Source: Arcticibacter tournemirensis (lineage in GTDB: Bacteria; Bacteroidota; Bacteroidia; Sphingobacteriales; Sphingobacteriaceae). From it: a stretch of 64,000 nt of DNA. Every line of letters begins with the position of its first letter. The stretch's first letter is position 1. Below are positions 3,837 through 55,579 of the stretch, piece after piece. The stretch spans positions 3,906,001 through 3,970,000 of the forward strand of contig NZ_VFPL01000001.1 of assembly GCF_006716645.1 (NCBI RefSeq). The letters run 5' to 3'. The notes under the pieces were generated by a model. It did no database searches and was not told where the DNA came from. It saw only the letters and a list, made by a program, of their open reading frames with translations. The position numbers and the translations under genes were made by a program.

Positions 3837-3899
3837 CAAAACTAACACCATGATAATTGGCGAAATGGTTAAAAAGTATAAATAAGTAGCACCAATGTT
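3837..3899 (-). promoter_or_regulatory. Operator-promoter site A, in front of GH43 (1964-3709)
   Basis: Reading on the minus strand from 3899, the element is AACATTGGTGCTACTTATTT (3880-3899). The -7 box TAGTTTTG lies at 3844-3837, exactly 55 bases downstream of the first base of the element, and matches the Bacteroidota consensus TAnnTTTG perfectly. The -33 region reads ATTT. The untranslated leader would be about 120 bases. Binding by the AraC domain of the regulator at 48666-52808 is inference. Confidence 0.7.
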
Positions 3900-3936
3900 T
3901 AAGAAGTTCAGTAAATCGTATACATAGGAGGCATTT

Positions 3937-3999
3937 GACATTTATACTATCTTTTTTTACGGGATGGTCTTTGGCTTACTCTTCTATAGCTTAGTTTTG
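3937..3999 (+). promoter_or_regulatory. Operator-promoter site B, in front of the CE6-GH43 operon
   Basis: The element GACATTTATACTATCTTTTT (3937-3956) is followed by a -33 box TTTG (3970-3973), 18 bases, and a -7 box TAGTTTTG (3992-3999). The -33 box starts 33 bases and the -7 box 55 bases after the first base of the element, as in site D. This is the best complete example of the promoter class in the window. Confidence 0.78.
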
Positions 4000-4129
4000 A
4001 CAGGTTATTCGGAATTTGTTTCTGTTTAAGATGTATCTCAGCCTGTCAATTAACCATGCGAACTACTTTTAGAACAAGCTGATGACATTTGCTACAAGCT
4101 CGAAACACAATAAAACCTAAAATAAAAGT

Positions 4130-4999
4130 ATGAAGATCCGGTTAAAACAAAATGTTCAACTAACACTACTGGCATTTGCAAGTTTACTCTTTGCACATAG
4201 TAATGTATTTTCACAGGACAAGAACTTCTATATATTTCTGTGCATCGGACAATCAAATATGGAAGGCAATGCAAAATTTGAGGCCCAGGACACCGTAGCT
4301 AACGAACGCTTCAGAGTGCTTCAGGCTGTTGACTGCCCTGACCTGGGAAGATCTATGGGTAACTGGTACGCCGCTGTTCCGCCTCTCTGCAGATGCCGGA
4401 CTGGTCTTACGCCGGCAGACTACTTTGGAAGAACAATGACTGCCGGACTTTCATCAGATATTAAGATAGGTGTCATCAATGTTTCGGTTGGCGGTTGTAA
4501 AATAGAATTGTTCGATAAGGGTCATTACCAGAGCTATGTATCAACATCTCCCGACTGGTTGAAAAACATGGTAAAAGAATATGATGGCAATCCATATGGC
4601 CGACTTGTAGAAATGGCAAAACTGGCTATGAAGGCCGGAGTGATAAAAGGCATTCTATTACATCAGGGGGAATCAAATACAGGTGATACTGAGTGGCCTC
4701 AGAAGGTCAAAACGGTTTACGAAAGCATCCTGACGGACCTGGGCATCGGTCGGGTGCCCTTGCTTGCAGGAGAAGTTGTGGGTGAAGATCAGGGCGGTAA
4801 GTGTGCCAGCATGAACAAGATTATAGCAACGCTGCCCGCTGTCATCCCAAATGCTTATGTTATTTCCTCTGCAGGGTGCCTTACAGCACCCGATAACCTT
4901 CACTTTAATGCTGCAGGATACAGAGAGTTGGGAAAGAGGTACGGCGAAAAGATGCTTTCACTGATCAGGGAAGAAGACAAAAAACAGAAATCAAAATAG
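4130..4999 (+). CDS. CE6 acetylxylan esterase (SGNH-type hydrolase)
   Basis: Secreted carbohydrate esterase of family 6 that removes O-acetyl groups from xylan so that xylanases and xylosidases can act. The signal peptide ends near residue 29. Signature motifs are GQSNMEG with catalytic S42, HQGESN at 178-183, and DNLHF with the Asp255/His258 pair. The length of 289 residues is usual for a single-domain CE6. It is the first gene of a two-gene operon with the GH43 gene 24 bases downstream, and it is preceded by site B. Proteins of this fold are often misnamed sialate O-acetylesterases; the xylan context argues for acetylxylan. Confidence 0.93.
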
Positions 5000-5023
5000 T
5001 AAGCCCATATTTCCTTATATCAG

Positions 5024-52808: not shown

Positions 52809-52895
52809 GTAGAGGTCTTTTCAATAATTAGTAGTTTCGCTAAATTTAATCATCCTCACATAAAAAAGGAATAAACGCAGGTAATTTTTTAAGCA

Positions 52896-54017
52896 TCAAT
52901 TTTGTCGAAACAACAAAGGAGCCAGTTCCTTCAGGCTTCGCCGCCAGGTTAGAAATTCGTGCGCTGTATTTTCCGATACATATGAAACTGCGTTATAACC
53001 TGCTTCTTTCAAAGATGACACCGCTTTCTTTACACCGTCCGGGCGCTCTTTACTTCCGCAGCTCAGGAAGATCAAATGTGGCTTCACTTTATCTTTCAAT
53101 TCATCCGGATTAAATGTGCCGCCACTTAGCAGGGCATAATAACCAAAAATATCGGGTTTGTTAAGTGTAATGCTATGCGTTTCCATACCACCCATTGAAA
53201 GCCCTGCCATAGCCCGGTTATTCCTGTTGGCGATGGTTTGGAAATTAGCATCGATATAAGGTATTAGCTCTTCTGTCAGCACAGTTTGAAAAGCGTCGAT
53301 TTTAAAGTCTCTTATACCTCCCCATCTGGTGTCGTTCGTCATACCATAAGTCATAACAATGATAAAAGGCTTGGTTCTGCCCTCCGCAATGAGGTTGTCC
53401 ATGATAAGATTCGCGCGCCCCTGGTTGCTCCAGGCGGTCTCATCCTCACCCCAGCCATGTTGCAGGTATAACACAGGATATTTTTTTGTGCTTTTTCCAT
53501 AACCCGGAGGAGTGTACACGAATGCCCTTCGTTGCATATTGGTGCTTTTGGAAGGAAAGAGAACCTGTTGCACATTCCCATGAGGAACATCTTTAAGCGC
53601 ATAAAAGTCCTGGTCCCTGGCTGGTATTTCAATCCCGCTTTCCCAGCGCAGGGAACCGAAAAAATTAAGAGCTCCCGGATCATTAAACACGCCTCCATCA
53701 ATCGTCAGATGATAATAATGAAAGCCTTCATCCATAGGACCTGAAGTTGTACCTGTGAAAAATCCGTCTGAGCCTTTACTGAGCCGGGTTCCTCCCTGAC
53801 CGCCAAGGCCAAGGCTCACCCTGATACTATCTGCCTGAGGTGCTTTAATCCGGAACCGGGCATAACCTTGTGAGTTCACCTGGGGATATTCTTGTCCCGG
53901 TTGATTCAGGGGCGATGGTTTGAAATCTTCCTTAACCCCCTCAGTGCTGGTTTGAGCATAAGAGAATCCGCACACTAGTGCAACTGCCAAAGCAATGGTA
54001 ATACTTTTTAAGTTCAT
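52896..54017 (-). CDS. CE1-type esterase with N-terminal CBM48-like domain
   Basis: Exported esterase of 373 residues, signal peptide to about residue 21. The N-terminal beta-sandwich (about 35-140) resembles the CBM48/E-set domain of Bacteroidota feruloyl esterases. The alpha/beta hydrolase part has [12 protein letters not shown], nucleophile S274 in GLSMGGMET and H353 in TAHEF. Where the paralogue at 6643 has SCGDND, this one has SCGSKE, so the catalytic acid is not obvious (E324 or D327 are candidates). Its expected role is removal of feruloyl or acetyl groups from arabinoxylan. It lies between GH43 and the regulator gene. Confidence 0.9.
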
Positions 54018-54070
54018 TACTGTTTTTATTAGAGTTTCTATATCGGTTAATGTTTACAATAAAGAGTAAA

Positions 54071-55432
54071 TTAATACGAGCCCTCTTTTTCGAAGCATAG
54101 CCAGTCGACTTCTACATCGCCCTCACCTTTCATTACCACGAACAGGTCTTTTTGCCCTGTATACCTTTTTGACAGCTTCGCATTGACCACTTTCCATGAA
54201 GCAGTAACAGGAACTTCCACCTCGGCGATCACCGGCCCGGACAATGAGTTCAGCCGTATCTCAAGAATCCCTGAAGTTTTCGAAGAAGCCAGCACGCTTA
54301 CCGATCCGGGTGCTTTACTCCCAAAATCTACACGGTTATACTGCAGCCATGCATCTGCAGAATTAAACCTTGTTTTCCATCCTTTAAAACGATCGGCTGT
54401 GTCAATAAACGCAATGGAAATGCCCCTGTCACTTATTTTACTATAACGGTCGATCTGTATTTTCTGTAATGCAGGCGTCAGGCCTACGCCTCTCAAAGTG
54501 GGTATTACTTTTCTGATAGTTCCGTCTTCATTAAAGAACAGACTATCCAGCCTCACCGACCTGTTCTTGTCGAATTTCGGGGAGTAATCATTATGATGAT
54601 AAAACAGATACCATTGATTCCGGAATTTAATGATAGAATGATGGTTGGTCCAGCAACCTGTTGGAGATTCGTCCATAATCACGCCTGTCTTTTTAAAGGG
54701 TCCTAATGGATTATCGCCTACAGCATATTCAAGGCGTTCTATCTTATTTTCAACATGGGGATAGGTTAAGTAATAGCTCCCCCTACGTTCAAATAAATAA
54801 GGACCTTCCTTCAATCCTTTTTCAGGAAGATTCAGAAGGATAAAAGGTTCAGATGCCAGTTCAAGCATGTTATCTTTCAGCTTTGCGCCGAATATATGCC
54901 CCTGCGACCAGTACAAATAAGCCTGTCCGTCATTGTCAATAAACACATTCGGGTCTATTCCTTTCACATTTTTTATCGGAGAAGGCTGGGGAACAAAAGG
55001 GCCTGTCGGTTTGTCGGCCACAGCCACTCCAATAGCGAACCCCTTTCCCCCGCTTGTATCAGCGGGAGTGGCAGGGAAATAAAAATAGTATTTCCCATTT
55101 CTGAAAATGCAGTCGGGAGCCCACATGTTGTAGCTGTCAGGCTTCACCCATGGCACCTTGTTCTGCGTGATGATCACCCCGTGATCTGTCCATTCCCTAA
55201 GATTTCCGGAAGAAAACACATGGTAGTCTTCCATACAGAACCAACCGGGGCGGCCCTTACCAGGCACTACCGGAATATCATGAGACGGATAAACATATAC
55301 ACTGTCGCCAAAGACCCTGGCAGATGGATCAGCAGTATACTGCCCTGTGATGAAGGGATTCTGAGCAAAAAGGCTTTTACAAACAAATACCATCACCAAT
55401 TGCGAAACAAGGAAGAAACTTTTCTTAAGCAT
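54071..55432 (-). CDS. GH43 glycosidase with C-terminal CBM6-like domain
   Basis: Exported family 43 enzyme of 453 residues, signal peptide to about residue 23. The base is D35 in TADPSAR, D160 in KGIDPNVF and the acid E209 in LKEGPYLF. The last 130 residues form a beta-sandwich like CBM6 (ends VEVDWLCFE). The subfamily is not clear to me: it differs from the two GH43_29-like proteins in having EGPYLFERRGSYYLTYP and WTNHHSI. Arabinofuranosidase or xylosidase activity on xylan is likely. It is probably co-transcribed with the CE1 gene 53 bases downstream and is preceded by site G. Confidence 0.9.
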   Translation of the reverse strand: MLKKSFFLVSQLVMVFVCKSLFAQNPFITGQYTADPSARVFGDSVYVYPSHDIPVVPGKGRPGWFCMEDYHVFSSGNLREWTDHGVIITQNKVPWVKPDSYNMWAPDCIFRNGKYYFYFPATPADTSGGKGFAIGVAVADKPTGPFVPQPSPIKNVKGIDPNVFIDNDGQAYLYWSQGHIFGAKLKDNMLELASEPFILLNLPEKGLKEGPYLFERRGSYYLTYPHVENKIERLEYAVGDNPLGPFKKTGVIMDESPTGCWTNHHSIIKFRNQWYLFYHHNDYSPKFDKNRSVRLDSLFFNEDGTIRKVIPTLRGVGLTPALQKIQIDRYSKISDRGISIAFIDTADRFKGWKTRFNSADAWLQYNRVDFGSKAPGSVSVLASSKTSGILEIRLNSLSGPVIAEVEVPVTASWKVVNAKLSKRYTGQKDLFVVMKGEGDVEVDWLCFEKEGSY

Positions 55433-55559
55433 AAGAATGTATTGTTAGCCAGAAAGCATTGGCTTTAGAAGGTCAGTCTTTCGGGCAACTTCTTAATAAT
55501 CGGTTTAAAACTGACGGCAAGATCGCAAACAAACGCGAGTAAGGATGGCATGAATGGTA

Positions 55560-55579
55560 AATATCATAGCACAAATGTC
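55560..55579 (-). promoter_or_regulatory. Operator copy, site G, in front of GH43-CE1-regulator
   Basis: On the minus strand from 55579 the element reads GACATTTGTGCTATGATATT, with TT before it, so TTGACATTT and CTAT match site B exactly. At offset 55 there is no good -7 box (GATCTTGC), and the T-run is broken. It may be a weaker or differently spaced promoter. The GH43 start is about 130 bases away. Confidence 0.5.

Follow-up and report, generated by a model that had tools for sequence, protein, structure and literature searches.

Seven predicted tandem operators in fixed register with the -7 box at a xylan-type locus of Arcticibacter tournemirensis, and a hybrid two-component system as their probable reader

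The 64,000-nucleotide stretch of Arcticibacter tournemirensis DNA analyzed here (the window; contig NZ_VFPL01000001.1, C1:3906001-3970000 of the 5.66-Mb genome) contains a polysaccharide utilization locus (PUL) in which a short DNA element recurs at seven sites, A to G, and encodes a hybrid two-component system (HTCS) regulator at 48666-52808 that we consider its probable reader. In a Pfam scan the enzymes of the window belong to glycoside hydrolase (GH) families GH43, GH95, GH10, GH31 and GH3, with a melibiase-type (GH27-like) enzyme and esterases, and the uptake genes comprise two SusC/SusD-type pairs, an extra SusD adjoining a 972-aa protein, and a separate TonB-dependent receptor. The scan shows one HTCS, and the right edge carries another SusD and a cut receptor. 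From the enzyme families present, the substrate of the locus is probably xylan. An Rfam scan of the window found no family reaching the gathering score.

Each of the sites A to G lies upstream of the first gene in a predicted transcription unit, as the first-pass annotation had claimed for seven 20-bp elements, and re-reading the sequence returns the same coordinates and strands for all seven. The spacing it described also holds, with a TAnnTTTG box starting exactly 55 bases after the first base of the element in A, B, C and D, one mismatch in F, only TTTG in register in E, and no box in G. The predicted operators, the boxes and the regulator are listed below, with offsets counted from the first base of the element, E values from a profile built on relatives' sites, and orthologous sites in the related genomes G066 and G041.

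3858..3899, minus strand: operator A, tandem pair of 42 bp, before the GH43 gene 1964-3709; profile E 6.6e-7; G066 ortholog 265090+
3837..3844, minus strand: -7 box of A, TAGTTTTG, offset 55
3937..3978, plus strand: operator B, before the acetylesterase/GH43 operon 4130-6601; profile E 1.2e-4; G066 265029-
3992..3999, plus strand: -7 box of B, TAGTTTTG, offset 55
10113..10154, minus strand: operator C, before the GH95/esterase operon 10000-6643; profile E 1.4e-5; G066 257580+, G041 204303-
10092..10099, minus strand: -7 box of C, TAGCTTTG, offset 55
10249..10290, plus strand: operator D, before the SusC/SusD/GH10/TonB receptor/GH31/GH43 operon 10648-34181; profile E 6.0e-8; G066 257485-
10304..10311, plus strand: -7 box of D, TATTTTTG, offset 55
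34270..34311, plus strand: operator E, before the SusC/SusD pair 34556-39265; profile E 0.011; G066 219637-
34325..34332, plus strand: degenerate -7 box of E, GTTATTTG, TTTG in register; G066 ortholog TAGCTTTG at the same offset
48565..48606, minus strand: operator F, before the GH43/melibiase (GH27-like)/GH3/GH31 operon 48484-39368; profile E 3.6e-4; G066 203212+
48544..48551, minus strand: -7 box of F, TAATTTCG, one mismatch
55538..55579, minus strand: operator G, before the genes for GH43 with a carbohydrate-binding module (GH43-CBM6) and esterase, 55432-52896; profile E 0.002; G066 274861+
55517..55524, minus strand: box register of G, GATCTTGC, non-canonical; identical in G066 at 8 of 8 positions
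48666..52808, minus strand: HTCS regulator, 1380 aa, with Pfam matches to propeller repeats, Y_Y_Y, HisKA, HATPase, receiver and AraC helix-turn-helix (HTH)

The 20-bp element is the distal half of a larger site, and a weaker second copy begins 21 bp later. When the seven sites are compared with themselves at shifts of 8 to 44, the likeness is best at 21 (-1.0), followed by 42 (-2.8) and 12 (-3.5). The repeat unit approximates TnRACATTTnTgCTA, with T(-2) and T(19) each present in 20 of 20 sites from three genomes. Of the two copies the proximal one is the weaker; about 20 bp separate its end from the -7 box, and it overlies the -33 place. At a spacing of 21 bp the two direct units lie two turns apart on one face of the DNA. 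The pair identifies the sites much better than the 20-mer alone: in leave-one-out tests over all window positions on both strands, the 42-bp pair ranks six of the seven sites first and F second, and a 63-bp model including the box ranks all seven first, whereas with the 20-mer alone five sites rank first, E is tenth and F is 252nd.

The distance to the -7 box is also fixed beyond the window. A matrix that excludes the box has 51 matches of at least 11 bits in 800 kb (relatives' HTCS loci plus 60 kb around the A. tournemirensis paralog of the window HTCS), against 4–21 for column-permuted matrices, and of 25 exact TAnnTTTG boxes found at +43 to +99 behind these matches 15 are at 55, 8 at 56, and one each at 54 and 83. 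Without any matrix, RACATT occurs 18 times at 55 and 8 times at 56 before 856 boxes near HTCSs (the window left out), where 0.85 is expected per offset. A -33 box had been reported in both B and D at offset 33; B does have TTTG, but D has ATTG, and a TTTG box is rejected as a regular feature, being exact only in B and without a consensus at this position among the 20 sites from three genomes. The layout is that of a class II type activator promoter, with the proximal half-site over -33, a fixed distance to the box, and a poor upstream box. The bare rule of ACATT, spacer and TAnnTTTG was rejected as a genome-wide predictor, with 11 of 89 matches (counted by hand) on register against 6.8 expected from 13 even spacings.

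Within the A. tournemirensis genome the loose 20-mer is unspecific (527 matches with up to three mismatches, compared with 791 for a reversed control), and exact matches are confined to B and D. Adding 35 bases and TAnnTTTG at the same tolerance leaves six matches in 5.66 Mb, namely A to E and one beside the paralogous HTCS, with three for the reversed control; equally good matches with the 55-base offset before unrelated genes, an outcome that the first-pass annotation had named as refuting its proposal, were not found in this genome. A boxless tandem pattern allowing three mismatches, a limit that B, C and F exceed, matches A, D, E, G and the site by the paralogous HTCS, with one match for its reversed control. 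A matrix built from 13 relatives' sites scores A to G at 25.6–36.0 bits, with the next window position at 8.1 and 400 kb of background at no more than 10.9; in 320 kb around the other HTCSs of this genome it has one high match (22.9 bits, C1:3010378) and then nothing above 12.6. This test and that with the window matrix are not fully independent because the window matrix was used to find the relatives' sites. A candidate near another HTCS of this genome (L232 17598-; 22.2 bits with a 20-site matrix, 12.6 with the relatives-only matrix) lies inside a coding start without a box, and was rejected as a chance match.

We also built a sequence-only profile from 12 relatives' sites and searched it in six genomes of the genus, scoring 150 first-look candidates in each. 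In the A. tournemirensis genome, where 150 of 1303 candidates were scored, there are eight matches with E <0.02, ranked D, A, C, 3010375, B, F, G and E (E 6e-8 to 0.011), and nothing further until E 0.17. A genome-wide search of the kind proposed in the first-pass annotation gives matches that cluster in the locus, with one additional site by the paralogous HTCS. The view taken there that the whole xylan locus forms one regulon is supported for the units behind A to G and is slightly too wide in taking in the operon 56020-63961 (-), since neither this operon nor the next 16 kb contains an operator (best 11.8 bits, boxless and little above background). The right-hand end of the regulon appears to be at G, with operon 56020-63961 outside it. 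That operon is a neighboring GH43/sulfatase/SusD operon, and another HTCS is encoded in the next 16 kb.

The sites are conserved in relatives. At a threshold of at least 11 bits the window matrix has 13 matches in 140 kb of G066 and two in the HTCS locus of G041. Every site-gene pair of the window has its counterpart in G066, an orthologous site before an orthologous gene, with the A/B and C/D divergent pairs and E, F and G all matched; in G066 two extra genes lie between operator A and its GH43 gene, and the gene behind G has been relocated beside another HTCS with its site retained. Compared in register, window and G066 are identical at 202 of 252 operator positions, 63 of 133 spacer positions, and 128 of 420 and 125 of 420 flanking positions (30%); since the flanks are so diverged, the operator identity reflects a conserved footprint rather than recently shared DNA. 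In G041 the arrangement is reduced to two divergent sites between the GH95/esterase genes and SusC/D, next to the HTCS. As is expected of HTCS direct-repeat operators of the Ravcheev type, the sites show linkage to a regulator and specificity for its regulon, and they are kept before orthologous operons in related genomes.

Among the profile matches in G066, all 12 with E <0.01 fall in C95:185-286 kb, 10 of these having been training sites, and the first match elsewhere (C71, E 0.038) precedes a GH31 gene 61% identical to that of the window; the best G055 match (C55, E 2.9e-4) precedes a GH43-CBM6 gene 77% identical to the window's. The G066 GH31 gene and a GH43 pair in G055 are accordingly predicted regulon members in these relatives. 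The best match in G041 outside its HTCS locus (L261 10034, plus strand; C1:615034, E 2.4e-5) lies before two secreted-looking proteins, both unlike window proteins.

The regulator encoded at 48666-52808 has a periplasmic propeller sensor, Y_Y_Y, HisKA, HATPase, receiver and AraC HTH domains in one chain, the composition that defines an HTCS, and its receiver-plus-HTH stretch matches PDB chain 12aw_A. The translation contains SHEFRTP and DVNMP, which we take from their motifs to be the phospho-acceptor His and Asp sites. The nearest named relatives found with this protein are Pararcticibacter amylolyticus (77%), which is placed in the Sphingobacteriaceae, and Arcticibacter pallidicorallinus (70%). 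A. tournemirensis itself has 16 HTCS-like matches, two of which are pieces of one protein, and among 12 other HTCS loci compared by tblastn the paralog at C1:3015235 has the closest DNA-binding domain (57%; next 41%).

Sites and regulator occur together. Searched at E 0.05 in 20 genomes of the family, the profile has matches in nine of ten genomes with a 50–56% identical HTCS and in none of ten without one, where 'without' means no match at E 1e-200 among the two HTCS candidates scored per genome. At 14 of 22 site matches in other genera, the gene read or the one after it on the same strand encodes a protein resembling one encoded in the window PUL, as judged by hand from the best four matches per locus, some being only 24–38% identical. 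The earlier proposal that the HTCS at 48666-52808 reads the sites is supported by this co-occurrence, the 21-bp layout and the DNA-binding-domain ranking, which together make it the probable reader.

We estimate a probability of about 0.86 that A to G are operators of this HTCS through which seven transcription units are co-activated. In the mechanism we propose, the regulator would sense xylan oligosaccharides, which would bind its propeller sensor in the periplasm; the kinase would hand phosphate to the fused receiver, and two AraC-type domains would then fill both half-sites. Once bound they would activate rather than repress, holding sigma-ABfr polymerase on a promoter with a poor -33 element, with transcription beginning just after TAnnTTTG. 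The fixed 55–56 bp register would preserve the geometry of this contact, and the seven operators would turn on their seven transcription units together. An activator of the AraC type that touched polymerase as a dimer would need this arrangement, with both units on one face, the weaker over -33, and the -7 box at a constant spacing. Escherichia coli AraC at araI1-I2 likewise uses a direct pair of half-sites spaced by 21 bp, of which the weaker overlaps -35 of an activator-dependent promoter; the system described here differs in having a membrane-fused phosphorelay regulator and a Bacteroidota sigma factor, and we see no evidence of DNA looping.

The strongest alternative is that the operators belong to another AraC-type regulator, most plausibly the paralogous HTCS at C1:3015235 (49% identical), which would then read both clusters, or that the two HTCSs share one site type. 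The single off-locus match does fall in the cluster of this paralog, the only other site in the genome among the 150 of 1303 candidates scored, and none of the other DNA-binding domains ranked above is as close as that of the paralog. However, seven sites surround the window HTCS and one lies by the paralog, G066 and G041 retain sites beside orthologs of the window HTCS, and G055, whose two scored HTCSs are 48–49% identical, has no clustered site set, so that we regard this alternative as unlikely. The off-locus site at C1:3010378 (+) precedes a gene of 282 codons within the cluster of the second HTCS, and because G076 has a closely similar site it may be the operator of that second HTCS.

It is far less likely that the element is a strong promoter type with an extended upstream element. 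Its AT-richness and its constant position with respect to the -7 box would suit such a promoter, but in this genome the element is confined to the present locus and one HTCS cluster (150 of 1303 candidates scored), the repeat is not seen at this genome's background boxes, and the ten genomes lacking an HTCS match also lack the element. Recognition by a Crp-like sugar regulator, whose half-site includes AACATA (PMC3878776), or by a SusR-type protein known from Bacteroides is scarcely credible, since the site of the Crp-like regulator is palindromic over 22 bp and the repeats of SusR are 67 or 77 bp apart, whereas the repeats here are direct and spaced by 21 bp.

Several observations weigh against assigning A to G to the window HTCS. 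Sites E and G have no canonical -7 box; these promoters may be weaker or more dependent on the regulator. Matches to the boxed pattern with up to three mismatches exceed those of the reversed control in G066 (8 to 2) and G041 (3 to 2), but the control does at least as well as the real pattern in other genomes of the genus (matches/control 1/4 in G076, 0/6 in G055 and 0/4 in G020). G041 and G066 also show matches before genes that could not be placed, and for eight of the 22 matches in other genera no downstream gene resembling one of the window PUL is among the matches listed. In one of the ten genomes that carry the HTCS the profile has no match; both sets of ten were hand-picked, and with two candidates scored per genome the set 'without' is not equivalent to genomes with no HTCS. 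The profile searches, with their 150 candidates per genome, were not exhaustive. Lastly, the 470 bp upstream of the window HTCS gene contain no operator (best -12.4 bits), unlike in G066.

Autoregulation of the window HTCS through an operator of its own was accordingly rejected for those 470 bp. Read-through from the transcript of G is possible, and the 87-bp gap between the G genes and the HTCS gene contains no terminator-like site (seven such sites in the stretch, 6.7 in shuffles). The HTCS gene of G066 is preceded by an operator (C95:198815, plus strand) with TAGATTTG at offset 55, which suggests that the G066 HTCS is positively autoregulated.

Direct-repeat operators of HTCSs are already known in Bacteroides. 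Those predicted in Bacteroides thetaiotaomicron by Ravcheev et al. 2013 (PMC3878776) are direct repeats with a mean spacing of 21 bp, and the sites here share this structure of two like direct sites about 21 bp apart, as well as the position upstream of operons in the polysaccharide locus to which the regulator belongs. They differ in belonging to the Sphingobacteriaceae and a xylan-type locus and in standing 55–56 bp from TAnnTTTG, the accessible text of PMC3878776 giving no promoter distance. Insertion into BXY_29350, the xylan HTCS of B. xylanisolvens, lowered the PUL operons and a second cluster (PMC4855328), and the HTCS sensor BACOVA_04394 of B. ovatus binds xylotetraose (PMC3243724); both are like the window HTCS, by description, in being HTCSs of xylan loci, BXY_29350 also in controlling several operons, and differ in that the accessible parts of these studies define no operator. 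HTCS fragments of BT0366 (PMC5061871) and of BT4124 and BT4663 (PMC11253607) shift promoter fragments with predicted sites in electrophoretic mobility shift assays; there ligands and loci are different and binding is experimental, whereas the present sites are predicted from sequence. For sigma-ABfr the consensus at -7 and -33 is quoted in PMC7366714, and neither the accessible text of that paper nor that of PMC12125979, PMC11501099, PMC6874557 or PMC4942465 gives an operator-to-box distance. A fixed register of this kind, with signs of a 21-bp repeat at HTCSs of other families, was not found in print in open-licence PMC, which lacks most subscription papers. The fixed -7 register would be the new part; operator, half-site structure and promoter register are now given for a xylan-type HTCS outside the gut Bacteroides, with a probable seven-operon regulon defined up to its right-hand boundary.

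Signs of the same layout extend beyond these sites. When the DNA before boxes is compared with itself without any motif, 21 is the best of 22 shifts in the relatives (143 boxes, z 5.9), in HTCS loci of other families within the class (122 boxes, z 4.0), and at the other HTCSs of this genome (43 boxes, z 3.0); no signal is seen at shift 21 in 78 background boxes (z -0.8). Box-wise one-sided t tests give p values of 2e-6, 2e-4, 0.009 and 0.7 for relatives, other families, own genome and background, and Wilcoxon tests 3e-5, 0.001, 0.02 and 0.8, all of which are optimistic because boxes of related genomes are not independent. The likeness is greatest in windows starting 55–61 bases before the box, both in the relatives and in the pooled other HTCS loci; at shift 21 the background peaks at 4.74 of 15, in windows starting 43 before the box, and the HTCS groups at 4.98 and 5.29. 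An earlier motif-free test in other families, with 58 boxes only, had 22 or 14 as its best shift; the 122-box test includes those loci, and its start range of 52–62 came from the family data and was chosen after the first test. On balance we lean slightly towards the view that HTCS promoters across Bacteroidota share a sequence-independent layout in which a motif, whatever it is, recurs after 21 bp and the pair keeps a constant distance from the TAnnTTTG that follows. If this layout is general, one genome without comparative data would suffice for reading any HTCS operator, the targets of HTCSs whose regulons are unknown could be predicted, and the sugar-inducible promoters of Bacteroidota would be readable directly.

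The D operon encodes two proteins with no Pfam match at 1e-5, at 15765-18683 (972 aa) and 23268-24005 (245 aa), which are kept in G066 with 80% and 59% identity respectively. The 972-aa protein may be SusC-like because it and SusC1 match the same stretches in the loci of three relatives, at about 28% identity. The leader from D to SusC1 contains a five-codon mini-ORF (open reading frame), M-K-P-P-T-stop, at 10412-10429 (+), 108 nt after the box, and its counterparts in the homologous G066 leaders are MRHPT-stop (108 nt) and MKAPT-stop (100 nt). Four such mini-ORFs occur in the window and the HTCS-near loci scanned, of which only these three are behind a box, and two scrambled control patterns occur twice each; translational control of the D operon by a leader peptide is possible. 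The SusC3 leader has an upstream ORF at 34339-34473 (+), of 44 aa from the first ATG or 22 aa from the second (34405-34473), and ORFs of 33 aa in G066 and 36 aa in G041 occupy a similar place with differing sequences.

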